Shown in pieces: positions 4,766-63,999 of a DNA stretch of 64,000 bases. The position numbers and the translations under genes were made by a program. Each line of letters starts with the position of its first letter. The first letter of the stretch is position 1. Source of the stretch: Sulfurimonas sp. (lineage in GTDB: Bacteria > Campylobacterota > Campylobacteria > Campylobacterales > Sulfurimonadaceae). Below the pieces are notes generated by a model, which worked only from the letters and a program-made list of their open reading frames with translations, did not search any database and was not told the DNA's origin. Location of the stretch: NCBI GenBank assembly GCA_013791885.1, contig VMSZ01000056.1:23995-87994 (forward strand), in the 5' to 3' direction.

Positions 4766-5353
4766 TTGAAATTAGTTTTAGCAACGTCCAATAAGGGCAA
4801 AGTAAAAGAGATACAGGCTCTGTGTAAGGATTTTGAAGTTGTTCCCTACTCCGAACTTATAGAAGAATTTGAAATAGTGGAAGATGCTGATACATTTAAA
4901 GAGAACGCGCTCATTAAAGCAAGAGCAGTTTTTGCAGCACTTCAAGATAAAGATGTTGTGGTTATGGCTGATGACAGCGGCATCAGTGTGGATATTCTTG
5001 ATGGTGCGCCCGGAATCTACAGTGCAAGATACGCAGGGGTGGGTTCAGGAGATAAAGACAATCTTTACAAACTCATAGAAGCTATAAAAGACAAAGGTGC
5101 TTCCTCATCACCTGCACATTACACGGCGGCTATTGCTATAGTAACAAAAGATGCCGAGTACAGCGTTCATGGCTGGATGTATGGCACTGCGTTTAGTGAG
5201 GCAAGAGGAGAGGGCGGTTTTGGATATGACCCTATGTTTATCCCTGAGGGGTATGAAAAAACTTTAGGTGAACTTGATGATGAAATAAAGAAAAAACTCT
5301 CTCACCGTGCCAAAGCACTTTCTTTAGCAAAAATAATTTTACACACACTCTAA
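4766..5353 (+). CDS. rdgB: XTP/dITP pyrophosphatase (Ham1/RdgB family), TTG start
   Basis: [55 protein letters not shown] motifs. Confidence 0.95.
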
Positions 5354-5361
5354 GTGCGTGT

Positions 5362-6132
5362 TTAAGAGAACATAATGAGTAGAATCGCTCCAAAAAGTAT
5401 CCTGTAAATACCAAACGCAACGAAGGTGAATTTTTCTAAAAACTTCATAAAGAGTTTGATGGTGAGATACGCAACTATAAATGAAACAACAAAGCCAATT
5501 CCAAGAGTAATAAGATTTGCATCACTAAACTCCTTGTAATGTTTGAGTAAATCATATGCTGATACAGCGCTCATAACAGGGATGGCAAGTAAAAAGCTAA
5601 ATTCGGCACTTGCTTTTCTGCTAAGACCGACAAGCAAAGCTCCTATAATGGTTGAACCGGCACGGCTTGTTCCGGGAATGAGAGCTAAAACTTGCGCAAG
5701 GCCTATAAATATAGATTGCTTCATGGTGACTTGCTCAACGTCATCCTGAAGTTTTGACTCATCTTTTAAGAAAAATTTCTCGACTATTAAAAAGACGATA
5801 CCGCCTAGAATGAACATAATAGCGACAATCTCTATGCTGAAAAGTTCTTTTATCTGTGAGGAAAAAAGATAGCCGACTGCTCCAAGAGGCAAAAACGCAA
5901 CAAAGACTTTTGTCCATAAATCTATTTTTTGAAATGTGAATTTATCTTTGTAATTCATTACAACTGCAAGAATCGCGGCAAACTGTATGATGACTTCATA
6001 CGCTTTAGTAGCCGCATTTTGATTAAGCCCTAAAAAATGGCTCGCTACAATGAGATGGCCGGTAGAAGAGATGGGTAGAAACTCAGTAAAACCTTCAATA
6101 ATACCTAAAATAATTGAATCAAAAATAGTCAT
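5362..6132 (-). CDS. uppP: Undecaprenyl-diphosphatase (BacA/UppP)
   Basis: [20 protein letters not shown] and [10 protein letters not shown] motifs. Confidence 0.95.
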
Positions 6133-6267
6133 TACTATCCTTTATTTAAAAAAAATGAATAGTAGCACAGCATGGCTTTGAATATCTTCTCCAAAGCCTA
6201 TTTAAACTTTTTTAGATATAATACGAGGTTTTTTAATTACGATATTACCTTATATAGGAATTTTTAT

Positions 6268-7383
6268 ATGTTACTTTTTACTCCTGGTCCTACTCCAGTA
6301 CCCCAAAATGTTCGTAACGCGATGAGTGATGAGACAATGCATCACCGTACTCCAGAATTTGAAGCTATTTTTGAAAAAACAAGAAAACATCTTTTTTCTC
6401 TTTTTGGAAGCGATGAAGTAATTATGCTCTCTTCAAGCGGAACGGGTGCCATGGAAGCGGCTGTAACAAATCTATGCCATAACACTTTACTGAATGTAAA
6501 CTCAGGGAAGTTTGGTGAACGATTTGGAAAAATTGCACTTGCAAGCGGTTTGAAAAATGTAGAGATAAAGAATGAGTGGGACACTCCTGTAAGTGTAGAA
6601 GCAATTGTAGAAGCAATTAAAAATAATGCAGATATTGATGCAATAGCAGTACAGATTAGTGAATCTGCAGGCGGTCTTCGTCATCCGGTTGAAGCAATTG
6701 CAAAAGCAGTCAAAGAGATTAACCCGAATATTATGATTATTGCTGATGGCATTACTGCTGTTGGTGTTGAACCTATAGAAATAACTAATATAGATTGTCT
6801 TATTGCTGGAAGCCAAAAAGCTTTAATGCTTCCTCCAGGGCTTGCTATTTTAGGCCTTAGCAATAACGCAATTGAGAAAATTGGCAAAGGAAAAGGCTAC
6901 TACTTTAACCTTGCAACCGAGATAAAAAACCAAAGACAAAACACAACGGCTTGGACTGCTGCTACGACTTTAATTATTGGTTTACTAGAAGTTTTGGAAA
7001 CAATTGAAAAAGATGGCGGAATGTCTAAACTATATGAAAAAACCGCTACAAGAGCAGAGGCAATAAATGCAGCCCTTCAAGCACTTGGACTTCACATTTA
7101 TCCAAAAACTCCGGCAAAATCTATGACGACAGTTGATGACGCGGATGCTTCAAAAATAAGAAAAGTACTTGAGCAAAAATTCAGTGTAAATGTTGCAGGC
7201 GGTCAAGACCATTTAAAAGGAAAAATTTTCCGTATTAACCAAATGGGACTTATTCCGGATTATGAAGCTGCTTGGGTTGTAAACGCAGTAGAATTAACGC
7301 TTGATATGCTAGGCCGCCGCAAGTATGATGGAACAGCAAATAAAATTTTTAACGAAATTACTTTTCAAAATAGAGCATTGTAA
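6268..7383 (+). CDS. Class V aminotransferase (alanine-glyoxylate/serine-pyruvate aminotransferase family)
   Basis: MLLFTPGPTPVPQNV start with AGGA upstream; PLP lysine region GSQKALMLPPGLA. The ORF track starts upstream at 6172; the homologous start is 6268. Confidence 0.9.
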   Translation: MLLFTPGPTPVPQNVRNAMSDETMHHRTPEFEAIFEKTRKHLFSLFGSDEVIMLSSSGTGAMEAAVTNLCHNTLLNVNSGKFGERFGKIALASGLKNVEIKNEWDTPVSVEAIVEAIKNNADIDAIAVQISESAGGLRHPVEAIAKAVKEINPNIMIIADGITAVGVEPIEITNIDCLIAGSQKALMLPPGLAILGLSNNAIEKIGKGKGYYFNLATEIKNQRQNTTAWTAATTLIIGLLEVLETIEKDGGMSKLYEKTATRAEAINAALQALGLHIYPKTPAKSMTTVDDADASKIRKVLEQKFSVNVAGGQDHLKGKIFRINQMGLIPDYEAAWVVNAVELTLDMLGRRKYDGTANKIFNEITFQNRAL

Positions 7384-8231: not shown

Positions 8232-8247
8232 AAAAGGGAATAATATA

Positions 8248-9498
8248 ATGAAAGCAGATTTAATCGTAGGAATACAGTGGGGAGACGAAGGAAAAGGTAA
8301 AATAGTTGACAGACTTGCAAAAGAGTATGACATGGTTTGCAGAAGCCAAGGCGGTCATAATGCGGGGCACACTATCTGGGTTGATGGCGTAAAGTATGCG
8401 CTTCACCTTATCCCTTCTGGCGTTTTAAATCCAAAAGCTATTAATGTAGTCGGTAACGGCGTTGTTTTATCTCCAGAGTCAATCATTAAAGAAATGGTTC
8501 AATTTGAAGGCTTGGAAGGGCGTCTTTTTATCTCTGATAAAGCGCACTTAAATCTTTCATATCACTCTTTAATTGACCAGGCGCGTGAAAAACTCAAAGG
8601 CGATAAAGCTATCGGTACAACAGGAAAAGGTATTGGGCCTGCATATTCAGATAAGATTAATCGTGTTGGAATGAGAGTCGGCGAATTGTTAAACCCTGAA
8701 AAACTTTGTGCGTCTATTCTAGAATATTTTAAACAAAATAGAGAAATTTTTGATATTCTTGACATTAAAACTCCAAACGCAGCAGAACTTTTAAGTGAAC
8801 TTGAAGGCTTTAAAGAAAAACTTGCTCCATTCATTACGGATACAACGCAGATGGTTTGGCGAGCTCTTGACAGTGAAAATAAAAGAGTTTTACTTGAAGG
8901 CGCACAGGGAACAATGCTTGACATTGATCATGGGACATATCCGTATGTTACTTCAAGCTCGACTGTAAGTGCCGGTGCTTGTACAGGTTTAGGCATTAAT
9001 CCTAAAGACATTGGTAAAGTGACAGGAATTGTGAAAGCTTATTGTACTCGCGTTGGAAATGGACCATTTCCAAGTGAAGATTTAGGTGAAGACGGTGCAA
9101 GACTTGGTAAACAAGGGCATGAGTTTGGAACTACAACGGGACGTGCAAGAAGATGTGGCTGGTTTGATGCCATTGCTACAAAATATGCAAGCCGTTTGAA
9201 TGGCTGTGATGAACTAGCACTTATGAAACTTGATGTTCTAGATGGATTTAAAGAAGTTAAAGTTTGTATAGCGTATGAGCTTAACGGTGTAGAGATAGAC
9301 TATCTTCCTGCAAATCTTGAAGATGTAACACCAATTTACAAATCTTTCAAAGGCTGGGATAAATCTGTAGGTGCCAGAACTTTAGAAGAGTTGCCTCAAG
9401 AAGCAAGAGATTACATCAAGGCTATTGAAGAGATTACGAAAACAAAAGTTGGTATAATCTCAACATCACCCGAAAGAGAAGACACAATTATTCTTTAG
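8248..9498 (+). CDS. purA: Adenylosuccinate synthetase
   Basis: [49 protein letters not shown] motifs. Confidence 0.97.
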
Positions 9499-9526
9499 TC
9501 TATCTCCTCTTTTATAAGGATAGAAA

Positions 9527-9958
9527 ATGAACACTCGCTTTAGTTCTCTTGTTACTCTCAAAAAGAATAAAATGGAGCAGAGTGAGCGTTTAGTTCAGCG
9601 AGCAAACGCAGACTTGAACACAGCCTCTTCACAACTTCAAGCCTCTTATAACTCTTTAGCTGAAGTAGAATCGCCACAACGTGGCAGTATCTCAAAATTT
9701 TTAGCTTCCCGTACTCTTCTTTCAACAGCACGTAGTGCAATAGAGCATAATAAAGAGTGGGTAGGATTTGCAAAAAAACAAGTACACTTAGCAAGAGAAA
9801 ATCTAAAATCTGATATGATTGAGCATGAAAAATTTAAATATTTAGAGCTTGAAGAGATTAAAAAAATCCTTTTAAAACAAAAACGCCAAGAGGCAAAAGA
9901 CTTAGATGAAGTTGCGTTAATGACGTACTCAAAACCAGAATCAAATATCAAGGGATGA
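9527..9958 (+). CDS. fliJ: FliJ-like coiled-coil flagellar protein
   Basis: 143-aa charged coiled coil with FliJ-like N-terminus; immediately upstream of a MotE-like gene. Confidence 0.55.
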   Translation: MNTRFSSLVTLKKNKMEQSERLVQRANADLNTASSQLQASYNSLAEVESPQRGSISKFLASRTLLSTARSAIEHNKEWVGFAKKQVHLARENLKSDMIEHEKFKYLELEEIKKILLKQKRQEAKDLDEVALMTYSKPESNIKG

Positions 9959-9959
9959 G

Positions 9960-14854: not shown

Positions 14855-14863
14855 GAGAGATAT

Positions 14864-15787
14864 ATGAATAAGCTTTATCTTGGGGGAGCTATTTTTACCA
14901 TTCTTATGTTAGCGTTTACATACATATCTGTAGGCGGTTCTGAGGGTGGTTTAAATGGCGATATCGTCAATATGCTTGCTGTTGCAGGTGCGGTTGCACT
15001 TGTAATAATTACAGTTTTTGTTGTAATCAAGTATGTTCGTCAAATGCAAACTGACACGGCTGACGGCGAGTTAGCTGATGAGAGTTGGGATAACATTGGT
15101 GAGTATAAAAATCCGGTTCCAATGGGCTGGGCTATTATGTTCTTAGGTACAATGATCTGGGGTATGTGGTATTTTTTAATTGGTTATCCAGTAAACGCAT
15201 ATTCACAAATTGGTGAGTACAATGAAGACACTGCAGCACATAATGAAAAATTCAATGCACAATATGAATCTATCACTGGTGATAGATTAGTAGAAATGGG
15301 TGAATCAGTATTTTTGGCTGAGTGTAAAGTTTGTCACGGTTTAGCTGCTGATGGTATTGACGGCAAGGCTGCAAATCTTAAAGTAAGACTTGAAGCAAAA
15401 ACTGTTAAGCATGTTGTAGAGAATGGTTCAAACAATCAATTATTAGGTACTGAAATGCCTATGCCGGATCGTAACGGATTATTTAACAACAATACAGGTG
15501 CGCTAATCACTGATGCTGAAATTGACGCTGTTGCTGCTTATGTGGCAAATGGTATGAGCGGTGCTGGTGCTGATGTGTTTGCTGGAGCTTGTGCTTCTTG
15601 TCACGGTGAAGACGGTCAAGGTATGGAGTATGTTGCTCCAAATGTTGCTGCGTTTACACCTGAACTTGTTGCAAATGTTCTTAATCATGGTAAAAAAGGC
15701 GTAATCGGTACTATGCCTGCGTTTGACAGATTAAATGCAAAACAAAAAGAGGCTGTTGGTGCTTACATCACTAGTCTAAGTAAATAA
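14864..15787 (+). CDS. ccoP: cbb3 oxidase subunit III, dihaem cytochrome c
   Basis: Two CXXCH motifs (CKVCHG, CASCHG) and a CcoP N-terminal TM region. Confidence 0.96.
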   Translation: MNKLYLGGAIFTILMLAFTYISVGGSEGGLNGDIVNMLAVAGAVALVIITVFVVIKYVRQMQTDTADGELADESWDNIGEYKNPVPMGWAIMFLGTMIWGMWYFLIGYPVNAYSQIGEYNEDTAAHNEKFNAQYESITGDRLVEMGESVFLAECKVCHGLAADGIDGKAANLKVRLEAKTVKHVVENGSNNQLLGTEMPMPDRNGLFNNNTGALITDAEIDAVAAYVANGMSGAGADVFAGACASCHGEDGQGMEYVAPNVAAFTPELVANVLNHGKKGVIGTMPAFDRLNAKQKEAVGAYITSLSK

Positions 15788-17392: not shown

Positions 17393-19741
17393 ATGAATGA
17401 AAAAACTATAGTTTTACCTTCTGCCAGAGCGATACGCAATGAGCAACTAAAAATAGAAAATCCGACACTTTTTCTTCCAAATTACATAACTATGAGCGAT
17501 TTTGTCTCCAAGCTTTGCATCGTAAAAGATTTAAAAATGCATGATGAAGACAGCAGGGTCCTTTTGCTGCTAGAAGCTGCAGATTTCAAAGAGTTTTCAC
17601 AGCTTCAAATAGAGCGAAATTTTTTTACTTTCACAAAAAATTCTTCCTATATATTTAAATTTTTTGAAGAGTTAAGTGCTGAGATGTATGACATTCAAGA
17701 GCTTGATACTTCAGATATTTATGCAGAGTATGAAGAGCACATAAGCATTCTTCAGGAACTTCACAAACGTTATGAGAAAATCTGTGCCCAGCGGAAGGTT
17801 CTCGATAGAATATTTTTGCCCAAACTCTATATTTTTCATAAAGAATATGCCCTAACGCATAAAAAAATCGAGATACACGCAGAGGGACATCTTACAAATT
17901 TTGAACTTGAGCTTCTACAAAAATGCTGCGTGTATTCAGAAGTAAACATTCATCTAAATACTACAAAGTTCAATACTAAAATGCAAAAGAAATTTTTGGA
18001 TTTGGGTATTGAACTTGAGAAGGATTACTCTTATATTATCTCACTAAACGCAGCGAAAATTGTGAGTAAAGAAGAGAGTAAAAAAAACAAAAAAATCCAC
18101 TGCGAATCTTTAAGTGAGTCTCTCTTGCAAGTTGCGTTTGTGAAGACGAAACTCTATGAGTTTATACAAAAAGGCTACGAAGCGCAAAATATAGCGGTTA
18201 TTTTGCCAGATGAAAAGTTCGCGGAGCTTCTGAAGGTATTTGATGAAAAATCAAACTTTAACTTTGCCATGGGCGATGCATTTTCTAAAAGTAAAATCTA
18301 TCAAAAACTAGATGCAACAATGCAGGCCATAGAGAGCGACACGAAAGAAAATGAGGCAAGACTAGAACGCGTTGGGGAGGAGATATACTTAGAGCTTTTT
18401 TCCATTTACTACAAGAGCGCAAAAGAGGTAAATATTTTGGAATACTTTGCCAAATATAAAGAGTTCATAGGCAGCAAAGTCGAGCTAAAAATTTTTGAAG
18501 AAGAGATGTATAACTTTAAAAACATTCTCCCTTTTATGAGTGAAATGAGCGTAAAGTCTCTGTTGCATCTTTTCCTGCAGAGAATATCGCAAAGAACACT
18601 CGATGACGTGCGCGGAGGAAAAATAACTGTTATGGGAGTTTTAGAAACCAGAGCAGTTGCGTTTGATGCGGTTATAATAGTAGATTTCAGTGACTCAAAT
18701 GTCCCGCGAAAAAGCGATAAAGATATGTTCTTAAATACAAAAATCCGTACAATAGCCGGCTTACCGACTATGAATGACAGAGAGAATCTGCAAAAGCATT
18801 ACTATGAAAGATTGATTAACTCAAGTAAAGAAGTCGCGATTTGTTACGTCGAATCAAGCCAAAGCTCTGCTTCGCGTTTTCTCAAACAGTTGCATATTAA
18901 GCAAATAAAGAGTCACTCTGAACAGGACTATGCTCAGATACTTTTTCATAAACGCAGTCTTGTTAAAAAAGAAGATGAAAAAATTGTGGGAGAGTATAGT
19001 TTTAAAGAGCATAAACTCTCAAACACAAAACTAAAAACTTTTTTGACCTGCAAAAGAAAATTTTATTACAGATATATCAAGCACATAAACGCCCATGAAA
19101 TCCCAAAAGATATGCCAAAAGAGTGGGAAATAGGGATTGATGTACATAGTGCGCTTAAAGAGCTTTACAGTAAAAAAAATAGCTACACAAACGCAGTTGA
19201 ACTCAAACGCGACCTGCAAAAAGAACTCGACAATGTTTGTGGGAGAAGTGAGCTGGAAAAATATCTCATCAGTATGTATAAAAAAAGTTTAGATGCATTT
19301 TGTGAAAATGAGATAGTAAGATTTCAAGAAGGATGGAAAGTCCTCAGTTGTGAAGAGAACTTTGAATGTGACTTTGCGGGGGTAAAGCTTATCGGGCAGA
19401 TTGACAGAATTGACCAAAGAGAAGATGAGATTTTTGTGCTTGACTACAAAACAGGTTCTTATCCGCTCTATAACTCTAAAAACTTCACCGAAGCGACAGA
19501 TTTTCAATTAGAGTTTTATTATCTCTTAACAAAAAAATTAGCAGGCCAAACGCAGTGCGGATACTACGATTTAAAAGAGTCCAAAATTGTAAACGAACTG
19601 TTTTTAGAGGAAAAACTCGGCGTTTTGGAGTCCAACATCAAAGACATTCTAATGCACGAAACACATGAGTTTGACAAGTGTGATGACTTGAAAAATTGTA
19701 TTTACTGTGAATTTTCCACTATGTGCCAAAGAGAAAAATGA
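17393..19741 (+). CDS. addB: AddB-like subunit: degenerate helicase plus PD-(D/E)XK nuclease with Fe-S-type cysteines
   Basis: GQIDRI...FVLDYKTGSYP nuclease motif; TCKRKFYYRYI ... NCIYCEFSTMC cysteine arrangement; no recognisable Walker A. Confidence 0.82.
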   Translation: MNEKTIVLPSARAIRNEQLKIENPTLFLPNYITMSDFVSKLCIVKDLKMHDEDSRVLLLLEAADFKEFSQLQIERNFFTFTKNSSYIFKFFEELSAEMYDIQELDTSDIYAEYEEHISILQELHKRYEKICAQRKVLDRIFLPKLYIFHKEYALTHKKIEIHAEGHLTNFELELLQKCCVYSEVNIHLNTTKFNTKMQKKFLDLGIELEKDYSYIISLNAAKIVSKEESKKNKKIHCESLSESLLQVAFVKTKLYEFIQKGYEAQNIAVILPDEKFAELLKVFDEKSNFNFAMGDAFSKSKIYQKLDATMQAIESDTKENEARLERVGEEIYLELFSIYYKSAKEVNILEYFAKYKEFIGSKVELKIFEEEMYNFKNILPFMSEMSVKSLLHLFLQRISQRTLDDVRGGKITVMGVLETRAVAFDAVIIVDFSDSNVPRKSDKDMFLNTKIRTIAGLPTMNDRENLQKHYYERLINSSKEVAICYVESSQSSASRFLKQLHIKQIKSHSEQDYAQILFHKRSLVKKEDEKIVGEYSFKEHKLSNTKLKTFLTCKRKFYYRYIKHINAHEIPKDMPKEWEIGIDVHSALKELYSKKNSYTNAVELKRDLQKELDNVCGRSELEKYLISMYKKSLDAFCENEIVRFQEGWKVLSCEENFECDFAGVKLIGQIDRIDQREDEIFVLDYKTGSYPLYNSKNFTEATDFQLEFYYLLTKKLAGQTQCGYYDLKESKIVNELFLEEKLGVLESNIKDILMHETHEFDKCDDLKNCIYCEFSTMCQREK

Positions 19742-47034: not shown

Positions 47035-47664
47035 ATGAAAAAAGTACTTCTAATTTTAACAACAATCGTCCTCAGTATGCTTTTTATGGCATGTAGCAAA
47101 GTTGCTTTTGAAAAGCAGCCCCCAAAAGAAAACGCAGCACTTGTGTATGTGTATGTAGATACAGATAGCGGCGTAAATATGACAAGCAGAGTCTCTTTGT
47201 ATAAAGTCGGTATTAACGGTAAAAAAACAGAAGGTTACCTTAAAGTAGGTGAGTACAAAGCTTACGATCTTAAGCCGGGAATGCTGACTATCTCAGCTTA
47301 TAGAGGTGATTTGGAAGAGCAAAAAATTAATCTTGACCTTGCTGCGGGCAAAACATACTACTTAAGAGTAAAAAGTTTCGCAGATGATTTTGGAAAATTT
47401 GAAATAACAAGAGTAAATTCAAGTGTAGCGTATGAAGAGTTGCAACATACAACTTTGGCAGGTGAATATGTAAAACAAGATAACATAATCTCTGAGTTGA
47501 TTACTCCTAAAGAGGAAGCTGTAGCTGCACCTGTAGTGACTCAGCAAGTTGTCTACACAAAATCAAAAACAGAAGAGCTTCAAAACGCAGCTGCTTTAAA
47601 ACAACAAGGTATTTTGACAGAAGAAGAGTTCTCTAAACTCAAAGCAGAAATTCTCTCCAAATAA
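47035..47664 (+). CDS. DUF2846-like lipoprotein with C-terminal SHOCT-like domain
   Basis: Lipobox LFMACSK; C-terminal EELQNAAALKQQGILTEEEFSKLKAEILSK. Confidence 0.75.
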   Translation: MKKVLLILTTIVLSMLFMACSKVAFEKQPPKENAALVYVYVDTDSGVNMTSRVSLYKVGINGKKTEGYLKVGEYKAYDLKPGMLTISAYRGDLEEQKINLDLAAGKTYYLRVKSFADDFGKFEITRVNSSVAYEELQHTTLAGEYVKQDNIISELITPKEEAVAAPVVTQQVVYTKSKTEELQNAAALKQQGILTEEEFSKLKAEILSK

Positions 47665-49511: not shown

Positions 49512-50093
49512 ATGATAATACGTAAAATGTTCAAATTTGAAAATGCTCATATTGTGCGAGGATGTTCAAGCGTGAAGTGTAGAAGTTCACTGCATGGACA
49601 CTCTTACAAAATCGAGCTCCTTTTTGAATCCAACTTTTTAGATAATGGACAGATGGTCTATGATTTTGGTCTTATGAAACAAAACATGAAAGCCCTTGTG
49701 GAGAGTTTTGACCACGCTGTAGCCATCTGGAGCGGGGACGATAAAGAGTATGTGAGTGATATGAAAAAACACTCTCTTAGATGGGTGGAGTTGCCTGTTT
49801 CTCCTTCTGCTGAGCAGTTTTCACGCGTTATATTCATTATGATAGATAAACTGCTGCGTTTGACTTCAAGTGTTAACGGTGAAAAAGAGGTGAAACTTAA
49901 CAGCGTCATAGTTCACGAAACAGACACAGGGTATGCGCAATGTTTTGAGTCGGATGCCTATTCGTTAAATATGGGTGAGATTAAACTTGATGAAATTATT
50001 TTCTCTGAAGAAGTGCAAAACGACTGGGCAGATAAAGCACTTTGGGAGAAGATAAAACGCAGTGAGAGATTTGTAAATCCAACCTGCGTTTAG
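49512..50093 (+). CDS. queD: 6-carboxy-5,6,7,8-tetrahydropterin synthase
   Basis: FKFENAHIVRGC, SLHGHSYKIEL, YDFGLMKQNMKALVESFDHA. Confidence 0.92.
   Translation: MIIRKMFKFENAHIVRGCSSVKCRSSLHGHSYKIELLFESNFLDNGQMVYDFGLMKQNMKALVESFDHAVAIWSGDDKEYVSDMKKHSLRWVELPVSPSAEQFSRVIFIMIDKLLRLTSSVNGEKEVKLNSVIVHETDTGYAQCFESDAYSLNMGEIKLDEIIFSEEVQNDWADKALWEKIKRSERFVNPTCV
50055..50091. repeat. Inverted pair of AAACGCAG motifs at the convergent queD/moeA ends
   Basis: AAACGCAG (50055-50062), 21-nt spacer, CTGCGTTT (50084-50091). Confidence 0.9.
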
Positions 50094-51307
50094 AGTGTTA
50101 TAAGGCTTCTGATGTGATTGGAAGTAAAACGAAATTTGGTCGGAATAATTTTTACGACTGCGTTTTGTGCCAAATGTGCGCATGATTCATCTATCATAAT
50201 GTAGGCATTTGCGTAGGCTAGAGGCGATATCATCCCCGGAGCGAATTTTTCACATACTTGAAAATGCTCTCCGTCAAAAAAGCCGGGAATGAGTGAACGT
50301 CGTCCTTTTCTCACTTCAAAATCTTCTTTCATCTTTGCGTTTATGCTGCTTAAAAATCTTGACTTGTCTCCACTGAGAGCTAAAATCATACTCTGTCCGA
50401 AAAGCTCAAAGTTGAGTGCCGCTGCAAGAGGATTCCCTGGTAAATTTAAAACAAAAGTATCTTTAATCCGTCCAAAAGTTGTAGGTTTACCCGGCTTAAT
50501 TTCTATCTTTTCAAAATAATTTTGTGCTCCGAGACTCTCAAAAGCCTCTTTGGTAAAATCTGCATCACCGACACTGACACCGCCTGAAGTAATGATCAAG
50601 TCACTATCAAGAGCACTTTTAATATGCTCTTTAATGTCTTCTAGCGTGTCATTTGCCGTACCGATAAAATTCACTTCGCAGCCAAACTCAAGAGCACGAG
50701 AGAGAAGCATAGGCGTGTTTGTATTGTAAAGCTGGTATGATTCAACTTGTTCAAAATGCATCTTCAGCTCATTGCCCGAAGCAAAAAGAGAGACGCGCGG
50801 CTTTTTAAACACTTTGACGTGCGTAATTCCCTGAGACGCCAAAAGTGTAATGGAATAAGCGTTAATTCTCTCGCCTTTTTCAAGAAGTTTTGTCTCTTTT
50901 TTAATATCTTCTCCGCTGAGGCGTATGTGTTTGGAGAGAGTCAGATTTTGCGGTAATAAAACGCCATCTTCGCACGTTTGTGTTTCTTCAACAGGAACGA
51001 TGCACTGAGTTCCAAGAGGTATTTTGGCTCCGGTCATAATCTTGATTGCGTTTTCATGCTGGAGCTCTTCATTAAAATCATCGCCGGCAAAAATTGTGTG
51101 CGTTACCTTTACGCATTTTCCGCCGTCTTCTATTTTTACAGCATAGCCGTCCATGGCTGAGTTGTCATAAGGAGGCAGGTTGTGCGTGGCAATAATATCT
51201 TCGCCTAAAACATAGCCTAGCGTCTCTTCAATCGGTAAAATTTTGAGTGATTTTGTTTGTATATTTGTATAAATAATTTCTAATGCTTCTTCTACTGTTA
51301 CAGCCAT
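50090..51307 (-). CDS. moeA: Molybdopterin molybdotransferase
   Basis: LPPYDNSAMDGYAVK, IMTGAKIPLGTQCIVPVEE, TSGGVSVGDADFTKEA, LPGNPLAA. Confidence 0.96.
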   Translation of the reverse strand: MAVTVEEALEIIYTNIQTKSLKILPIEETLGYVLGEDIIATHNLPPYDNSAMDGYAVKIEDGGKCVKVTHTIFAGDDFNEELQHENAIKIMTGAKIPLGTQCIVPVEETQTCEDGVLLPQNLTLSKHIRLSGEDIKKETKLLEKGERINAYSITLLASQGITHVKVFKKPRVSLFASGNELKMHFEQVESYQLYNTNTPMLLSRALEFGCEVNFIGTANDTLEDIKEHIKSALDSDLIITSGGVSVGDADFTKEAFESLGAQNYFEKIEIKPGKPTTFGRIKDTFVLNLPGNPLAAALNFELFGQSMILALSGDKSRFLSSINAKMKEDFEVRKGRRSLIPGFFDGEHFQVCEKFAPGMISPLAYANAYIMIDESCAHLAQNAVVKIIPTKFRFTSNHIRSLITL

Positions 51308-51760: not shown

Positions 51761-52428
51761 TTTATATTTTTGATGAAGATGCTTCAAAAGAGTTCCTCAG
51801 TATTCGCGGTGAAACGCATAAATATCTTGTAAAAGTCCGCCGTCATAAAGTGGGAGATGTGATTAACTTTAGAAATAAAGAAGATTTACAGATGCTCTAC
51901 ACTTATGAAATTACGGAACTTGACGGAAGAAGTTTGGAGTTAAAACTTGTTTCATCTGCGTTTGAAGAAGTGAAAAGTACAAAAGCGCTTCACATAGGCT
52001 GGTGCGTTATTGACATGAAGTCAATAGAAAAAGTATTGCCTTCACTCAGTGAAATAGGCGTGAGTAAAATTTCTTTTATCTCCTGTGAACGCAGCCAGAA
52101 TAATTTTAAACTCGATTTCAACCGCTTTGAAAGAATTTTAGAAGCTTCTATGCAGCAGTCAGGGCGTAGTACATTTATTGAATTTGAAACATATAAAAAC
52201 GTCAAAGAGTTTATCAAGGCCTACCCGCAGACGAAAGTTTTTGACTTTTGTGAAAATGTTTTAAAAGATGGTTCGAATATAGAAACCGTACTTATAGGCT
52301 GCGAAGGCGGTTTTTCCAAAGAAGAGAGAACAATTTTAAGTACTCAAGATAACTTTAGACTAAACACTCCAATGGTTTTGCGCTCCGAGAGTGCAGTATT
52401 GGCAGTTGCCAGTAAAGTGTTACTTTAA
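51757..52428 (+). CDS. rsmE: 16S rRNA (uracil1498-N3)-methyltransferase
   Basis: SLSEIGVSKISFISCERSQ, IGCEGGFSKEE, LNTPMVLRSESAVLAVASK. Confidence 0.92.
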   Translation: MIYIFDEDASKEFLSIRGETHKYLVKVRRHKVGDVINFRNKEDLQMLYTYEITELDGRSLELKLVSSAFEEVKSTKALHIGWCVIDMKSIEKVLPSLSEIGVSKISFISCERSQNNFKLDFNRFERILEASMQQSGRSTFIEFETYKNVKEFIKAYPQTKVFDFCENVLKDGSNIETVLIGCEGGFSKEERTILSTQDNFRLNTPMVLRSESAVLAVASKVLL

Positions 52429-52826: not shown

Positions 52827-53642
52827 TTGCTCCTTCTCGTTCCAACTCCGATTGGAAACATCGGTGATTTATCTTTAAGAGCAATAGATGCTTTTAAAGA
52901 AGCCGACATACTTCTTTGTGAAGACACCCGCGTTACAAAAAAACTCATTCACATCATCAAAGAACGTTACTCCATCGAATTTAAAGAAAATCAAGAGTTT
53001 ATCTCTTTGCATTCCCATAACGAACAAGCTTTTGTTGAAAAATTAGAACCCTCTTTTTTTGAGCAAAATGTTGTTTATGCAAGTGATGCCGGGATGCCCG
53101 GCATTAGTGACCCCGGACAGATTTTGGTACGTTTTTGCATTGACAATAAAATCAAGTATGACATATTGCCTGGAGCAAACGCAGTGCTTACCGCGTTTGT
53201 CGCAAGCGGATTTGTGCAGACAAAAATGCTGTTTTTAGGCTTTTTAGATCACAAGGGAACTTCTAGAAGTCATGGTCTTCAAGAAGCAATGTACAACGGC
53301 TACACAACTATTTTATACGAATCTCCGCACAGACTTGACAAGCTTCTTTTAGAAATTGATAAAGAAGACCCGACAAGAAGAATCTTTTTAGCTAAAGAAC
53401 TCACAAAAAAATATCAAAACTATTTTCATGGAACTGCGAAAGAAATATTTGATACTTTAAATGAAAATTATAAGGGTGAATGGGTTGTTGCTATTGAAGC
53501 TGCAGAGTCTCAAAACGAAAGTGCAGTGACACAAAATGACATCTTAGAGTTAGATTTGCCAAAAAAAGTACAGGCCAAACTCATTAGTAAAATAACCGGC
53601 GAAAATATAAAAGCATGTTACAACAGGCTCTTAAATCTTTAA
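52827..53642 (+). CDS. rsmI: 16S rRNA (cytidine1402-2'-O)-methyltransferase, TTG start
   Basis: LLLVPTPIGNIGDLSLRAI, LCEDTRVTKKLI, YASDAGMPGISDPG. Confidence 0.96.
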   Translation: MLLLVPTPIGNIGDLSLRAIDAFKEADILLCEDTRVTKKLIHIIKERYSIEFKENQEFISLHSHNEQAFVEKLEPSFFEQNVVYASDAGMPGISDPGQILVRFCIDNKIKYDILPGANAVLTAFVASGFVQTKMLFLGFLDHKGTSRSHGLQEAMYNGYTTILYESPHRLDKLLLEIDKEDPTRRIFLAKELTKKYQNYFHGTAKEIFDTLNENYKGEWVVAIEAAESQNESAVTQNDILELDLPKKVQAKLISKITGENIKACYNRLLNL

Positions 53643-54388: not shown

Positions 54389-55212
54389 GTGAAAATTTTA
54401 CAAAATTAAAAGAGATCGGTTTAGCAGAAATCTCTGAGCAGACGCATATTTCCAAGCAACATATAGAAGCACTTATTCAAGAAAATTTTAAGGCCTTGAA
54501 AAAAGTGCAGTTTTTAGGGTTTTTATCGATTCTTGAAAGAGATTATCAACTTGATTTGAGTGAGTTAAAAGAGCGCGGCCTTAAATTTTACAGTGATGCT
54601 GAGTCAGTGAAACCGGCAAGCGTTTTTGTGGAAAAAAGATCTAAAAAAAGCTCTAAGGGCATTTATGTACTAATAGCATTAATTATTTTTATTTTGGCTA
54701 TATATTACAGCCTCGGCTCAGATAAAACTGATATTGAAGTAAATGCGACGCAAGTTCAAAGTGTGACGCAAGAAATAGAAGTCTTGGTTGAAGACAATAT
54801 TTCAGAGAAAAACAGCTCTGCGTTTGAGAATAATACAAGCTCTGAATTCACGCAAGAGACAGATGTAAACGCAACATCTGAAACTATTCAAGCAGAGCTT
54901 GATTTGTCAGCTCAAGAGATGAAAAGCATGACAAATTCTTTGAAAATTATTGCTAATAGTAAACTTTGGTTTGGTTACATCGAACTTGGCACAGAGAACA
55001 AGACTCAAAAAGTATTTTCCGGAGATCTTGATTTAGATGCAAGTAAAAACTTACTCCTTCTTTTTGGACATAATAATGTAGAAGTTGAATTGAATGGAGA
55101 AAAACAAGAATTTGAAAAAAATAAAAATTTGCAGTTCTTATATAAAGATGGGAAACTCACTCAAATTAGCTTAGATGAGTTTAAAAAACTTAATAAGGGC
55201 AACAAATGGTAA
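54385..55212 (+). CDS. RodZ-like membrane protein (cytoplasmic HTH-like region, one TM, periplasmic domain)
   Basis: ISEQTHISKQHIEALIQENFKALKKVQFLGFLSILERDYQLDLSEL then TM GIYVLIALIIFILAIYYSLG. Confidence 0.55.
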   Translation: MSENFTKLKEIGLAEISEQTHISKQHIEALIQENFKALKKVQFLGFLSILERDYQLDLSELKERGLKFYSDAESVKPASVFVEKRSKKSSKGIYVLIALIIFILAIYYSLGSDKTDIEVNATQVQSVTQEIEVLVEDNISEKNSSAFENNTSSEFTQETDVNATSETIQAELDLSAQEMKSMTNSLKIIANSKLWFGYIELGTENKTQKVFSGDLDLDASKNLLLLFGHNNVEVELNGEKQEFEKNKNLQFLYKDGKLTQISLDEFKKLNKGNKW

Positions 55213-58649: not shown

Positions 58650-58657
58650 GGCTCACT

Positions 58658-59389
58658 TTGAGAATCTTTATTACCGGTGCAAGTAGTGGCTTAGGCGAAG
58701 AGTTTGCACGCCAATACGCGAGTAGTGAAGTTGAACTTATATTGCTCGCAAGACGAAAAGACAAACTTCAAAAACTCCAATTAGAATTGACTCCCAAGTG
58801 TAAAAGTGTTGAAATTATAATCGCTGACGTTACTGCGTTTGATGAACTGCAAGAAAAAATGAAACTTCTCGGTGCTGTCGATATTGTCATTCTAAACGCA
58901 GGTATCTCTCTTGGGCACTCTGCCGATATTACTCCATTCTCAGAGTTTAAAAAGTTATATGATGTCAACTTGCTCGCCAATCATGCAATTTTAGAGATTT
59001 TACTCCCGCGTTTTGTGGAGCAAAAATCTGGAAAAATAGTCTTTATCTCTTCACTTGCTTCTCTTATTTCTATGCCTAGTGCAAAAGCTTATTCGTCATC
59101 TAAACGGGCATTAAATGCATATGCCGAAGCAATCAGATATAAATATAAAAAAGAGGGTATTAAAGTTATAAATATTCTTCCCGGGTTTATACAAAGCGAG
59201 CTTACAGATAAAAATACGTTTTACATGCCATTTTTGCTGAGTGCGCAAGAGGGTGTAAAACGTATGAAAAACGCAATTGAAAAAAATAGACGTTTGTACG
59301 CATTTCCGCTTAGATTTAATTTAATCATTTTAGCTTTAAACTTACTTCCGAACTTTTTAAGAGAGAAAATTGTAGACTTTCTGAATTAA
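58658..59389 (+). CDS. Short-chain dehydrogenase/reductase, TTG start
   Basis: IFITGASSGLGEEFARQYA, ILNAGISLG, YSSSKRALNAYAEA. Confidence 0.92.
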   Translation: MRIFITGASSGLGEEFARQYASSEVELILLARRKDKLQKLQLELTPKCKSVEIIIADVTAFDELQEKMKLLGAVDIVILNAGISLGHSADITPFSEFKKLYDVNLLANHAILEILLPRFVEQKSGKIVFISSLASLISMPSAKAYSSSKRALNAYAEAIRYKYKKEGIKVINILPGFIQSELTDKNTFYMPFLLSAQEGVKRMKNAIEKNRRLYAFPLRFNLIILALNLLPNFLREKIVDFLN

Positions 59390-59461
59390 TTTATACGTCA
59401 AATGAAATTGCTGCCATGGCACCAATCTAGCCTGTAAAAAGGCATAAAAAAGGGTTTTTAA

Positions 59462-61531
59462 ATGGAACATATGAAAGTTATAGACAGCGTTTGTACGTAT
59501 TGTGGGACTGGTTGCGATATCGCGGCAAATGTGAACGTTCAAGAGAATAAGATTGAAAGTATCTTCGCTCATCCGGATGGAGTAGTTTCTCAAGGCAAGC
59601 TTTGTATAAAAGGCAAGTACGGTTTTGATTTTGTTGATGCGGAGGACAGACTTCGTATTCCCCGTATTCGTAAAAGCTTCTTAGAAAAAAATCCTGCCAT
59701 TAAAGAGGCTGTTGCTTCAACTTTGGTTGATTTGGATGCAACTTGGTATGAGACAAACTTAGAGAGTGCGACCACTGCATGTGCTATGAAACTCAAAGAA
59801 ATTCAAGCAAAGCACGGTAGAAAAAGTGTCTGTTCTATCGGCGGAGCGAGAACCTCTTGTGAGAGTTCGTACCTTTTTCAAAAATTTACACGCCACACAT
59901 TGAACTCTCCGCATGTAGATAATTGCGCGAGAGTTTGCCACTCTCCTTCACTTTCTGGAATGCGTAAAACTATTGGTGAAGGCGCTGCAACTAACCCTTA
60001 CAATGACATCTATAACTGCGAATTTATGATAGTTATAGGCTCAAATACGACGGAAGCACACCCAATTATTTCTAACCGTATAATTGATGTTGCCCGTGAG
60101 CATGACAATTTGGCTGTGTTTGATGTGCGTGAAATAAAATTGCACAGATTCTCAAAGTACAAGGGAATTATGCCTCATGAAGCGAATCTTCTTGTGCTTA
60201 ATATGCTTGCCTATGTCATCATCGACGAAGAGCTATATGATGAAAATTTTATAGCAGACAGAACAAAAGGTTTCCTTGATTTTAAAGCAAAAATTTTAGC
60301 GGATGAATACGCTAATCCGGACTATTTTCAGAAGATAGAGGGGTATGAGTATCTTTCTAAAATGATTCGCAAAGTTGCCCGTGAGTATGCGCTTAAAAAA
60401 TCTATGATTTTTTGGGGTCTGGGAATCACAGAACATATTGACGGTTCATACGCGGTTATGGCAATGACGCACTTGGCTCTTATGACTGGGAACATTGGAA
60501 AGAGCGGTGCCGGACTTATGCCTCTGCGTGGACAAAATAATGTTCAGGGGACATGTGACATGGGAATGCTTCCATATTATGACCCTGATTATCAGGTACC
60601 AAAAGAGATTGGACTAATGACGCCTCAGCTTGTCGATGCAATGCTCGAAGATGAGATAAAAGCGGTGCTCAATATCGGCGAAGATATTACGCATATTCAT
60701 CCAAATCTAAACAAAATAGACAGAGCTTTTGAAAAACTGGAACTTCTTTTTGTGCAAGAGCTGTTTATGACGGATGTCGCAAATCGTGCAGATATTGTAG
60801 TAGGAGTAAAATCAGCGTATGAGAAAACAGGTGTTTATGTAAACGCAATGCGTCGTTTGCACCTTTCTCAACCTCTTGTGAAATCAGACTTACCGGATGA
60901 CTGGGAAGTCCTTCAGATGCTTGATAATAAAATGGGCGGAAGTTATAACTACAAAAATTCCAACGAAGTATGGGATGAAGTAAGAGAAGTAGCCTACAGA
61001 CGTTTTAGCGGTGCCTCGTATGTCAGACTTGAACGCCATAGAAAACGCGGTCTTCAATGGCCTGTGCATACAGAAGATACGCCTATTTTACACCAACTCG
61101 ATTTTAGAACAGATGACGGCTTGGGCGAGTTTCATTATCATCAGTATAAACTCCGCGGTATGGTAGAAGAGATTTTAAATAAAACTCTGACGGGCTATCA
61201 TCTGACAACAGGAAGAACAATTGCTCATTACAATAATGCGGCACAGACTAAGCGTTCACCAAACCTTAACAAGCGTTATGATGAAGATGTTTTACTTGTA
61301 TATGAAGGTGACGCACATGAGTTCACGAGTGAGAAAGTTATACTCAAAAGTGAATTCGGTCAGACAAATCCACTCACTATAAAAATCACAGATAAGGTAC
61401 AGCCTAAAACATTGTTTTCGACTTTTCATCATGCAAGCTCGAAGATAAACAATCTTTTTGGGGACAAAAGTGATGAAGTGATTATGACGGCTGCGTTTAA
61501 GTCGATAAAAGTAGAAGTAATTAACTGTTAA
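59462..61531 (+). CDS. Formate dehydrogenase-like molybdopterin oxidoreductase, Cys at the Sec-equivalent position
   Basis: VCTYCGTGCDIA...KLCIKGKYG 4Fe-4S motif, DNCARVCHSPSLSGMRKTIGEGAATNPYND, GLGITEHIDGSYAVMAMTHLALMTGNIGK. Confidence 0.88.
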   Translation: MEHMKVIDSVCTYCGTGCDIAANVNVQENKIESIFAHPDGVVSQGKLCIKGKYGFDFVDAEDRLRIPRIRKSFLEKNPAIKEAVASTLVDLDATWYETNLESATTACAMKLKEIQAKHGRKSVCSIGGARTSCESSYLFQKFTRHTLNSPHVDNCARVCHSPSLSGMRKTIGEGAATNPYNDIYNCEFMIVIGSNTTEAHPIISNRIIDVAREHDNLAVFDVREIKLHRFSKYKGIMPHEANLLVLNMLAYVIIDEELYDENFIADRTKGFLDFKAKILADEYANPDYFQKIEGYEYLSKMIRKVAREYALKKSMIFWGLGITEHIDGSYAVMAMTHLALMTGNIGKSGAGLMPLRGQNNVQGTCDMGMLPYYDPDYQVPKEIGLMTPQLVDAMLEDEIKAVLNIGEDITHIHPNLNKIDRAFEKLELLFVQELFMTDVANRADIVVGVKSAYEKTGVYVNAMRRLHLSQPLVKSDLPDDWEVLQMLDNKMGGSYNYKNSNEVWDEVREVAYRRFSGASYVRLERHRKRGLQWPVHTEDTPILHQLDFRTDDGLGEFHYHQYKLRGMVEEILNKTLTGYHLTTGRTIAHYNNAAQTKRSPNLNKRYDEDVLLVYEGDAHEFTSEKVILKSEFGQTNPLTIKITDKVQPKTLFSTFHHASSKINNLFGDKSDEVIMTAAFKSIKVEVINC

Positions 61532-61541
61532 TTGTACATAT

Positions 61542-61566
61542 ACGCTCCCACGCAGAGCATGGGAGC
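61542..61566. repeat. REP-like palindrome (copy E)
   Basis: ACGCTCCCACGCAGAGCATGGGAGC, identical to copy B. Confidence 0.85.
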
Positions 61567-61570
61567 CAGA

Positions 61571-61598
61571 GAAGCTGTGCGAAGATGCACAGCTTTTT
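61571..61598. terminator. Terminator between convergent genes
   Basis: AAGCTGTGC gaagat GCACAGCTTTTT. Confidence 0.75.
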
Positions 61599-63999
61599 AT
61601 GCTTTGGAAGAAGCTTTCTCAATAACTCTCATAATCATTGCCGAAACATACGGAACACTCTGTACTAAAAGTGTTGAAGCAAAAACATATACTTCTACAA
61701 TCTCCTGCGTATTTGTCATAACCAGTGCAGTGAATGAACCAATTAATAAGAGTGCTAAAATAATTTCCTGATGAGAATTGTCTCCTGCAGCTTTTTTCGT
61801 GTTTCCGCCTTTTTCTGTACGTTTGAATGGAAGTGAATCTTTTACAAATCCGTCATATACCGCTTTAAAAATTGTAAGCTGTAAGCTCATAGCTGCAAGT
61901 GCACCTAAAAGAGAGTGGTAAAAGTTTGCTTTAACTCTTGTTCTGTAAAGTACAAACGCATGAATAACATTCACTAAAAACGCAGTTAAAATAGGCACGG
62001 TAAGTGCAATGGTAGGAATAGTTACTCCTACAAATATAATAACCGGAACCCAGACAATATTGAGCACTGCCGTTACTGGCCCAAGAGCGTCAGAGAGCCA
62101 GAAAAACCATCCTGTAATAAAGTGGTGCTTTTGGGCTTTTGTCAGCGTTTTAGACGATGGCATAAAATGCGCCCAATGTTTTTTAAGAATTTGAATTGCT
62201 CCATAAGCCCAACGGTGACGCTGCGTTTTAAAGGCTTCCATTGTGTCCGGAAGTAAGCCGTGACCATATCTTCTGTTTGTATAATGAGCACTGTATCCTG
62301 CCTCAAAAAGGCGAAGCCCAAGTTCGCTGTCTTCAACGATTGTATCTGTATTCCACTGACCGACTTCATCAAAGGCAGATTTGCGAATTAAGAGCATTGT
62401 GCCATGAGCTACAATAGCATTTTCTTCGTTACGCTCAACCATACCAATATCAAAAAATCCTGCATATTCTGCATTCATAGCAGTTTTTAAAAGAGACTCT
62501 TTTCCGTCTCTATGGTCTTGAGGCGCTTGAACCATTGCCACTTTTGTATCTTCAAAAATAGGTACCAAATCAACAAGCCAATTTGGAGAGATAACATAAT
62601 CAGCGTCTATTACAGCTAAAATTTCTGTCTCAGGATCCGCATACGGAAGGGCTTTATTCAATGCACCTGCTTTAAAGCCTTCACACTGAATGTCTAGATA
62701 GACAAATCTTTTACCTAGTTTTTCACATAACTCTTTGATAGGTGCTTTATAATAATCTTCAGGAGTATTGTTAATAATAACAAGTACTTCATAGTTTGTA
62801 TAATTAAGGTTTGAAAGAGCAACAAGTGTATCTTTAAGAACATGAGGCTGCTCTTTGTATGCCGGAACATGAATACTTACTAAAGGGACATGATTTGACT
62901 GGAGGTCAAGAGGAATAAGTCTTTTAGGGCGTCTTCCAAGAGTACATTTAAATAGTTCATTTGCTTTTGCAAGCGTAATAACGGTGAGAGGTATCATAAG
63001 TAAAGAACCCATTCCCCACATGACCCACATACCAAAGTTCATGTAGTGAATAAATGGATAAATAGCAGACATTACAATACCAAATGAGATACCTTGTGCC
63101 GCTAAACCGTAAGTCATTGCATGTAAAAAGTTCATACGCTGGTTACGTAGACCAAAGAAAGTGAGAAGTGCACCTATAAACGCAGCCGCACTCATTTGCA
63201 TAAACCAGTATGGCTCTATAAGAACGGCGCCTTGGAGTTCAAATTTTTGATTGCGGTCGGCATCAAAAATACCCCAGTACTGTCCCACGTTTCCTTCATG
63301 AATACCTTTCCAGGGTTGATCAAAAGCTTCAAGAAGGTTGTATTGAAAGCTCTCTTCTTTGGCTAAAATTAAAAATCTTCTGACAACTGTTGCCTGATTT
63401 TCCGCACTTGCAACTGAGCCCTGATTATTATAGCCTTGACTTGGCCAGCCAAACTCCCCAATAGTTACACGCTTGTCCGGAAATGCATTAACAACGTTAT
63501 GGTAAATATTTTTAAAGTAAGGAACAAACTCTTCAGCCTTAATTTTTTCCCAATACGGAAGCACGTGAATATTAATAAAATCAACTTCTTTTGCAAGTTC
63601 CGGATTGTCTATCCATAAGTTCCAAATTTCCGCAGTTGTTACACGTGGCTGGTGGTATTTTATAGGTGTTTTTTTCTCAACGACAGCAATAAATTGTTTA
63701 AAGTCACGAATAATCGCAATAAGCTCATCTACTGTCAAATCTCCGCGTAGCAGAACCTCATTCCCTACTATAATCGAGGAAATTGTGGCGTAGTACTCTG
63801 GAATAAGCTGCTTTGCTATCTCAATTTCTCTTTTATTATTCTCAGGATCACCTGAGAGCCACATTCCGTAATGCACTTGCATATTGAGTTTTTTGGCCTC
63901 CGGTAAAACAGCCTGAGCATCTTCAGAAGAGTAAACACGAATTTTTTTAGTAAACTTGCTGATAATTGTCAGATCTTTTAAAATCTCTTTTCCGCTGAG
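61597..63999 (-). CDS. Fusion of GH17-like beta-1,3-glucanase/transferase domain (N-term) and GT2 glycosyltransferase (C-term); 5' end beyond window
   Basis: GH17-like IGEFGWPSQGYNNQGSVASAENQA, NLLEAFDQPWKG; GT2 VSIHVPAYKEQPHVLKDTL, DADYVISPNWL, EDSELGLRLFEAGY, QRHRWAYGA. The frame stays open from the tracked Met to the window edge. Confidence 0.88.
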   Translation of the reverse strand, partial: LSGKEILKDLTIISKFTKKIRVYSSEDAQAVLPEAKKLNMQVHYGMWLSGDPENNKREIEIAKQLIPEYYATISSIIVGNEVLLRGDLTVDELIAIIRDFKQFIAVVEKKTPIKYHQPRVTTAEIWNLWIDNPELAKEVDFINIHVLPYWEKIKAEEFVPYFKNIYHNVVNAFPDKRVTIGEFGWPSQGYNNQGSVASAENQATVVRRFLILAKEESFQYNLLEAFDQPWKGIHEGNVGQYWGIFDADRNQKFELQGAVLIEPYWFMQMSAAAFIGALLTFFGLRNQRMNFLHAMTYGLAAQGISFGIVMSAIYPFIHYMNFGMWVMWGMGSLLMIPLTVITLAKANELFKCTLGRRPKRLIPLDLQSNHVPLVSIHVPAYKEQPHVLKDTLVALSNLNYTNYEVLVIINNTPEDYYKAPIKELCEKLGKRFVYLDIQCEGFKAGALNKALPYADPETEILAVIDADYVISPNWLVDLVPIFEDTKVAMVQAPQDHRDGKESLLKTAMNAEYAGFFDIGMVERNEENAIVAHGTMLLIRKSAFDEVGQWNTDTIVEDSELGLRLFEAGYSAHYTNRRYGHGLLPDTMEAFKTQRHRWAYGAIQILKKHWAHFMPSSKTLTKAQKHHFITGWFFWLSDALGPVTAVLNIVWVPVIIFVGVTIPTIALTVPILTAFLVNVIHAFVLYRTRVKANFYHSLLGALAAMSLQLTIFKAVYDGFVKDSLPFKRTEKGGNTKKAAGDNSHQEIILALLLIGSFTALVMTNTQEIVEVYVFASTLLVQSVPYVSAMIMRVIEKASSKA

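Follow-up and report, generated by a model that had tools for sequence, protein, structure and literature searches.

A dense octamer of Sulfurimonas is most likely a DNA uptake sequence within a genus-wide set of dialects, with a ribosomal RNA-linked pilin as its candidate reader

A 64,000-nucleotide stretch of the genome of the sulfur-oxidizing bacterium Sulfurimonas sp. (contig VMSZ01000056.1, positions 23,995 to 87,994), referred to here in its full length as the window, is crowded with copies of the octamer AAACGCAG. We infer that this word most likely serves as a DNA uptake sequence (DUS) and that it represents one dialect of a set spread across the genus. For the observations as a whole, the best explanation, in which we place high though not full confidence, is that AAACGCAG is the DUS of this species, that AAACGCAA is a weaker form of it, and that a minor-pilin-like protein is the candidate reader. 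The initial annotation of the window had proposed an uptake or Chi-like signal. The uptake half of that proposal gains support from the density of the word, its use on both strands, the existence of dialects, inverted pairs in the dialect CACATGCC, the near-universal presence of comEC, and the co-segregation of dialect and pilin. The Chi half does not, since consistent leading-strand bias is absent and, within a single genus, other words take the place of this one.

The window holds 50 copies of the word, 24 as AAACGCAG and 26 as CTGCGTTT, and AAACGCAG is its commonest 8-mer. A first tally, made by eye, had listed 49 positions, all of which are correct, but had overlooked the copy at 18950. 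The annotation's expectation that composition should yield only a few copies agrees with Markov models, which predict 2.6 to 4.8 copies on both strands at orders 1 to 3 and 13 at order 4. Across 200 synonymous-codon shuffles, in which the proteins and codon usage were kept, the coding count averaged 4.8 and never exceeded 13. The word could in principle be a by-product of codon, dicodon, or amino acid bias, given that all window sites lie wholly within open reading frames and mostly use one favored frame per orientation (xxA-AAC-GCA-Gxx at 20 of 28 sense sites, xCT-GCG-TTT at 19 of 22 antisense sites). We give this explanation essentially no weight; it is already refuted by the shuffles, the reversed word is rare, and most congeners lack AAACGCAG. 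Moreover, the word is read in several frames, so a single dicodon does not account for it. Neither counts near the codon expectation nor enrichment confined to one dicodon was observed, and the earlier claims of massive over-representation and of the insufficiency of codon or dipeptide bias both hold.

The same pattern extends to the whole genome of the window's species (G000; 2.52 Mb in 75 contigs), where we counted 833 forward and 865 reverse copies, 1,698 in all (about 0.67 per kb). As a control, the word read backwards occurs 35 times forward and 27 times reverse, 62 in all. Strand use is thus nearly equal at both scales, as had been claimed for the window. Within 752 kb of this genome, AAACGCAG ranks first among 8-mers under Markov models of orders 2, 3, and 4, with 515 copies against 31, 53, and 166 expected. 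Its first six letters are rigid, with variants near background, and positions 7 and 8 are mildly tolerant apart from the G-to-A change at position 8 that gives AAACGCAA, which is itself enriched (366 copies against 62 expected). We looked in the same 752 kb for an extended consensus and found none beyond weak flanking preferences, namely, avoidance of G at -1 and a slight excess of C at +1. Both the copy number and the density in G000 resemble those of published DUS, with about 1,900 copies reported in N. meningitidis and N. gonorrhoeae (PMC3630211). Two stretches of G000 have a low density: one, with 4 sites in 20 kb, carries surface-sugar genes, Fic, RhuM, and an integrase-type transposase, and the other, a chemotaxis cluster, has no sites in 8.9 kb. 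These two stretches are only suggestive of site depletion in mobile DNA.

Judged by ThrS, the closest relatives of the window's species are metagenome assemblies of Sulfurimonas, with 97% identity. We compared the word across a sample of 100 Sulfurimonas genomes (labeled G, with individual loci labeled L), in which we searched stretches of about 20 kb de novo for congener words and then took whole-genome counts of these words alongside reversed controls. The distribution of AAACGCAG is patchy: more than 800 copies occur in seven genomes, with a maximum of 1,822 per genome among congeners, intermediate numbers occur in about a dozen, and most genomes are at background. This comparison of related genomes, which the initial annotation had suggested, revealed that other words replace AAACGCAG in many of the congeners that lack it and together form a set of dialects. 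Among them, CACATGCC reaches 1,081 copies per genome, ACATGTAG reaches 993, AAACGCCA reaches 693, and TCACGCAA reaches 436, all with about equal strand use and far lower reversed controls. Further dialect words are CTCACGCA and AGATGC, and density is similar across dialects. AGATGC, followed by T or A, is strong in a further group, as seen in about 20 kb per genome; its 46 to 47 copies in L176 (G086:C1:1865000-1884900), against about 13 expected, suggest a dialect with a very short core. When aligned by eye, all of the dialect words fit a common A-Y-G-Y core (xxAYGYxx).

Dialects are almost mutually exclusive between genomes. The exception is a graded co-occurrence of AAACGCAG and AAACGCCA (G009, for instance, carries 409 and 636 copies, respectively), which is what would be expected if one word turns into the other. 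AAACGCAG is not clearly enriched in other genera of Campylobacterota. In three genomes from other families (G337, G253, and G359), it occurs at about twice the reversed control, and words related to it possibly exist elsewhere in the phylum. Several further observations were made along the way. The congener G108 is unlike the others in having 111 forward and 30 reverse copies of AAACGCAG, perhaps from a repeat array. Possibly the densest of the dialects seen is that of a relative whose locus L065 has the palindrome CYTTACATGTAAGG at roughly one copy per 1.2 kb. Words containing CGGTG (CGGTGAA and CGGTGTGA) are enriched in L179 (G090:C163), with 28 in 11 kb, and in this genome AAACGCAG is at background although the pilin falls in the ACGC clade described below. 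G069 (L128 and L279) has moderate numbers of CACATGCC (337), yet its pilin is closest to that of G040, a ACATGTAG species; it is perhaps a lineage in mid-switch. We rejected CGTCATTC and CGTGGGAA as dialects, as they look like longer dispersed repeats in some congeners. The loci L153 and L169 (CGTCATTC/AATGACGA) and L144 and L198 (pairs of CGTGGGAA) appear to hold dispersed inverted-repeat elements resembling the repetitive extragenic palindromic type.

The first gene that we found to follow dialect in its similarity encodes a minor-pilin-like protein of about 215 to 240 residues, with the window species' own copy at G000:C14:74744-75427 (L190:8745-9431). It lies directly upstream of 16S ribosomal RNA (rRNA) in 6 of 6 well-assembled genomes examined; of 43 mostly fragmented genomes, 38 have it no more than 300 bp from a contig end. 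Variable pilin genes immediately upstream of 16S rRNA were seen at L190, L269, L275, L278, L290, L291, and L296. The best matches to the species' own copy come from the AAACGCAG genomes G096 (68%), G016 (65%), and G087 (65%), and the next matches are mostly from AAACGCCA or mixed genomes.

We compared a pilin tree of 50 rows with a marker tree built from seven comEC-linked proteins (3,071 columns, 93 genomes). The marker tree makes sisters of the window's species and G016 and places them in the midst of CACATGCC and ACATGTAG species, and a clade of the ACGC dialect is rejected (approximately unbiased test, p-AU 3.6e-5). In the pilin tree, the copies of these two instead group with those of distant species of the same dialect family: the window species' copy pairs with that of G096 (99/91) and G016 pairs with G087 (88/87), while the ten ACGC copies fall on one side of a branch from the other labeled rows (85/91; 0 of 500 shuffles). 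An ACGC pilin group that includes the unlabeled G090 is not rejected (p-AU 0.35), whereas the pilin data do reject a species-like grouping of the window's species and G016 with their kin on the species tree (p-AU 2e-4, or 1.3e-4 with G075 alone). Corrected for species distance, pilin identity is 5.8 points higher within a dialect (permutation p 0.0002). Judged from these sequence comparisons, the rRNA-linked pilin is the best candidate for the reader of the word.

The protein's sequence places it as type IV prepilin-like and in no named family. It scores above the cut-off of TIGR02532, and N_methyl matches 14 of 15 members at E 0.1 or better, with the match in those 14 covering only the prepilin N-terminus. 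The Pfam GspH/FimT family (PF12019) gave no match at E 0.1 in the 15 members, and NCBIfam gspH reached 20.6 bits against a cut-off of 80. A profile search of the PDB returned only pilin N-termini and chance matches, and a relation to ComP was not seen in it. "FimT-like" is apt by build alone: an N-terminal helix, one domain, an invariant FD-x-x-GRP (GRP, not GRxR), and two invariant cysteines.

Candidate components of a transformation machinery are widespread in the genus, with comEC present in 61 of 61 near-complete genomes, pilins in 10 of 10 genomes tested, and a secretin in most. We also considered other pilin-containing loci. A type II secretion operon with four pseudopilins (L188, G000:C42:26000-45999) is found in about half of the genus; it was rejected as the uptake machine, as it does not follow dialects: about half of the genus, with all CTCACGCA and several ACATGTAG genomes among them, lacks its secretin. 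The pilins next to priA and comEC were rejected as the receptor for lack of dialect association (permutation p 0.62 and 0.45), and the window species' copies are closest to those of a CACATGCC species. Upstream of priA (L115:5360-6709 and equivalents) lie two or three fast-changing pilins that are mosaic between species; the first of them hardly differs between the window's species and the CACATGCC species G045.

The arrangement of sites bears on two other roles for the word. Chi-type sites shift the recombination nuclease AddAB out of degradation and into repair. They too are over-represented words of about eight letters, and the window encodes a site-rich addAB of its own (Table 1). E. coli Chi is strongly biased to one replication strand. 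We related site orientation to local GC skew in five dialects and obtained ratios of 171:124, 18:23, 38:34, 40:53, and 24:50. The first of these, for AAACGCAG, places 58% of sites on the G-rich strand and matches the excess on the coding strand (165:115); the other four are neutral or reversed, with weak opposite deviations in two. The strand-skew check that had been suggested for the word thus uncovered a coding-strand excess but no consistent replication-strand bias over the five dialects. GC skew is positive throughout the window, where the two orientations stand at 24:26. A Chi role is also at odds with the replacement of the word by other words within one genus, with the fact that dialect follows a pilin gene, and with the intergenic inverted pairs described next, which are uptake-like and not known for Chi. 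We consider such a role very improbable.

Inverted pairs are a feature of the dialect CACATGCC. Its intergenic sites number 26 of 72 against 7.9 expected, a threefold excess, and its sites form ten inverted pairs whose members lie within 50 bp of each other (for example, TTCCACATGCCAAGCTTGGCATGTGGAA), all of these pairs intergenic, where about one would be expected; direct pairs of CACATGCC within 50 bp number zero. Terminator pairs are a known feature of the uptake sequences in Neisseria and Haemophilus, and the CACATGCC pairs appear terminator-like, with an uptake-like anatomy. These pairs also speak against a highly iterated word with a non-uptake role, comparable to HIP1 of cyanobacteria and maintained through replication, repair, or methylation. 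Such a role would suit the palindromic form of some dialects (CTACATGTAG and TTACATGTAA) and the rigid first six letters of AAACGCAG without an extended consensus. However, AAACGCAG itself is not palindromic, and dialect tracks a gene of surface-pilin type across species, such that we find this explanation highly unlikely.

Over its 5.1 kb, the addB-addA pair carries 12 sites, where the remainder of the window would predict 3.3 (Poisson p 1.6e-4), in a region picked for this test after the fact. Enrichment of DUS in genome-maintenance genes has been reported, and the site richness of addB-addA is reminiscent of it.

Table 1. Candidate uptake-sequence sites in the window and the addB-addA pair (positions are those of the window)
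Feature	Position	Strand	Basis
Uptake-sequence candidate AAACGCAG	5187..5194	-	exact match
Uptake-sequence candidate AAACGCAG	7281..7288	+	exact match
Uptake-sequence candidate AAACGCAG	8775..8782	+	exact match
Uptake-sequence candidate AAACGCAG	9604..9611	+	exact match
Uptake-sequence candidate AAACGCAG	15648..15655	-	exact match
Uptake-sequence candidate AAACGCAG	15717..15724	-	exact match
addB-addA, recombination helicase-nuclease pair	17393..22485	+	PDDEXK_1; UvrD helicase
Uptake-sequence candidate AAACGCAG, in addB	18046..18053	+	exact match
Uptake-sequence candidate AAACGCAG, in addB, absent from first tally	18950..18957	+	exact match
Uptake-sequence candidate AAACGCAG, in addB	19189..19196	+	exact match
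Uptake-sequence candidate AAACGCAG, in addB	19548..19555	+	exact match
Uptake-sequence candidate AAACGCAG, in addA	20394..20401	+	exact match
Uptake-sequence candidate AAACGCAG, in addA, inverted pair with 20394	20425..20432	-	exact match
Uptake-sequence candidate AAACGCAG, in addA	20520..20527	+	exact match
Uptake-sequence candidate AAACGCAG, in addA	20991..20998	+	exact match
Uptake-sequence candidate AAACGCAG, in addA	21905..21912	+	exact match
Uptake-sequence candidate AAACGCAG, in addA	22064..22071	-	exact match
Uptake-sequence candidate AAACGCAG, in addA	22187..22194	-	exact match
Uptake-sequence candidate AAACGCAG, in addA	22398..22405	+	exact match
Uptake-sequence candidate AAACGCAG	28903..28910	-	exact match
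Uptake-sequence candidate AAACGCAG	30672..30679	-	exact match
Uptake-sequence candidate AAACGCAG	30777..30784	-	exact match
Uptake-sequence candidate AAACGCAG	31837..31844	-	exact match
Uptake-sequence candidate AAACGCAG	35034..35041	-	exact match
Uptake-sequence candidate AAACGCAG	35098..35105	+	exact match
Uptake-sequence candidate AAACGCAG	35294..35301	-	exact match
Uptake-sequence candidate AAACGCAG	35641..35648	-	exact match
Uptake-sequence candidate AAACGCAG	36625..36632	-	exact match
Uptake-sequence candidate AAACGCAG	36651..36658	-	exact match
Uptake-sequence candidate AAACGCAG, perfect 16-base palindrome with adjoining 37357	37349..37356	+	exact match
Uptake-sequence candidate AAACGCAG	37357..37364	-	exact match
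Uptake-sequence candidate AAACGCAG	38536..38543	-	exact match
Uptake-sequence candidate AAACGCAG	38573..38580	+	exact match
Uptake-sequence candidate AAACGCAG	40286..40293	+	exact match
Uptake-sequence candidate AAACGCAG	43496..43503	+	exact match
Uptake-sequence candidate AAACGCAG	46584..46591	-	exact match
Uptake-sequence candidate AAACGCAG	47130..47137	+	exact match
Uptake-sequence candidate AAACGCAG	47583..47590	+	exact match
Uptake-sequence candidate AAACGCAG	49854..49861	-	exact match
Uptake-sequence candidate AAACGCAG, inverted pair with 50084	50055..50062	+	exact match
Uptake-sequence candidate AAACGCAG	50084..50091	-	exact match
Uptake-sequence candidate AAACGCAG	50158..50165	-	exact match
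Uptake-sequence candidate AAACGCAG	51956..51963	-	exact match
Uptake-sequence candidate AAACGCAG	53177..53184	+	exact match
Uptake-sequence candidate AAACGCAG	54818..54825	-	exact match
Uptake-sequence candidate AAACGCAG	58833..58840	-	exact match
Uptake-sequence candidate AAACGCAG	58894..58901	+	exact match
Uptake-sequence candidate AAACGCAG	61491..61498	-	exact match
Uptake-sequence candidate AAACGCAG	61978..61985	+	exact match
Uptake-sequence candidate AAACGCAG	62221..62228	-	exact match
Uptake-sequence candidate AAACGCAG	63178..63185	+	exact match

A number of observations weigh against a DUS read by the rRNA-linked pilin. Drive should surround the word with a halo of mutated copies, but this halo is narrow: apart from the G-to-A change at position 8 and some less marked variants at positions 7 and 8, copies with one mismatch are near background. 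In G000, AAACGCAG is depleted outside genes (33 of 515 sites are intergenic), pooled dialect-1 loci have 15 intergenic sites against 29.5 expected, and the pattern of intergenic inverted pairs is not shown by AAACGCAG. ComEC is also associated with dialect overall, although not for the window's species and its sister. Groups were named after the first tree was seen, and the species tree is built on seven comEC-linked proteins. Finally, our literature search turned up no account of either natural transformation or uptake specificity for Sulfurimonas.

The main weakness concerns the pilin itself. A profile search retrieved no full-length copy from nine ACGC genomes (G014, G054, G057, G010, G023, G060, G097, G003, and G085) or from the CTCACGCA genomes G007, G020, and G022. 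In these genomes the gene probably falls into assembly gaps because it abuts the rRNA operon. It is conceivable, if somewhat doubtful, that these are uptake words with a different receptor, either another minor pilin or a non-pilin protein, and that the rRNA-linked pilin hitch-hikes or acts as a co-factor. The absence of the pilin from many word-carrying assemblies would fit this alternative, as would the misfits G063, a genome with weak dialect 1 whose pilin lies outside the ACGC clade, and G090, a genome of another dialect whose pilin lies inside it. Other minor pilins that could take this part include those of the operon encoding proteins of 191, 310, and 160 residues. On the other hand, the pilin is incongruent with the marker genes in the direction of dialect, and the two pilins near priA and comEC show no such association. 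We retain the rRNA-linked pilin as the candidate reader.

Comparison with known systems places this candidate DUS in context. Campylobacter jejuni discriminates self from non-self DNA in transformation on the basis of methylation at a common site; the phylum is shared, as is the kind of discrimination that we propose, but the label there is a methylated common site and here an over-represented word. In Pasteurellaceae, the motif of the uptake signal sequence (USS) is extended and lies between AT-rich flanks, unlike AAACGCAG, which has no extended consensus. Density, both-strand use, and dialects are alike, and there too a minor-pilin reader is predicted, ComN/PpdA, with support from co-evolution (PMC12616744, PMC7811141); the Sulfurimonas pilin has no detectable relation to known families beyond its N-terminus. 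The DUS of Neisseriaceae are read by the minor pilin ComP (PMC3630211, PMC3868556). They resemble the Sulfurimonas words in being short, occurring about once per 1 to 2 kb on both strands, forming species-group dialects with a common core (CTG there [PMC3630211], A-Y-G-Y here), having a minor-pilin-like reader or candidate reader, and, in one Sulfurimonas dialect, forming intergenic inverted pairs. They differ in that words and phylum are unrelated, that a relationship between the pilin and ComP was not seen in the searches made, and that the window's dialect is depleted between genes. FimT, a DNA-binding minor pilin of Legionella and other Gammaproteobacteria (PMC8897410), resembles the candidate reader in its class III prepilin N-terminus, in a single C-terminal domain of similar size class, and in that the pilin has an invariant GRP, although the GspH/FimT model is unmatched in 15 of 15 Sulfurimonas members. 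FimT binding is described as not sequence-specific (PMC12616744), and no word preference was reported for it (PMC8897410, PMC12616744).

Under the mechanism that we propose, the word would act as a label of self to which a minor-pilin-like component of the competence pilus would bind on the surface of the cell. Fragments carrying it would be preferentially taken up and recombined, and this bias would lead the word to accumulate on both strands genome-wide by molecular drive. The pilin whose gene immediately precedes 16S rRNA would probably set the dialect. In the ancestry of the window's species, a distant congener probably supplied this pilin gene or converted it, and the word then changed across the genome; the direction of this switch is likewise our reading of the trees.

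Neisseriaceae and Pasteurellaceae are, to our knowledge, the only families with established uptake sequences. The initial annotation knew of no described uptake or Chi sequence of this form in Campylobacterota, and our literature search found no paper on uptake sequences in that phylum. We judge the chances evenly balanced that Sulfurimonas represents a third, independently evolved uptake-sequence system, in Campylobacterota, with a minor pilin of a new family beside the rRNA operon and with gene replacement switching the label. If true, a lineage would change its self-label by horizontal replacement of a single pilin gene, and its entire genome would then be rewritten to the new word. A genus of free-living bacteria with many dialects and a candidate reader that seems to switch dialect when transferred would offer a natural experiment on how such systems arise and change. 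The dialect system bears on how uptake systems isolate gene pools, and the question of the receptor is testable by single-gene swaps.

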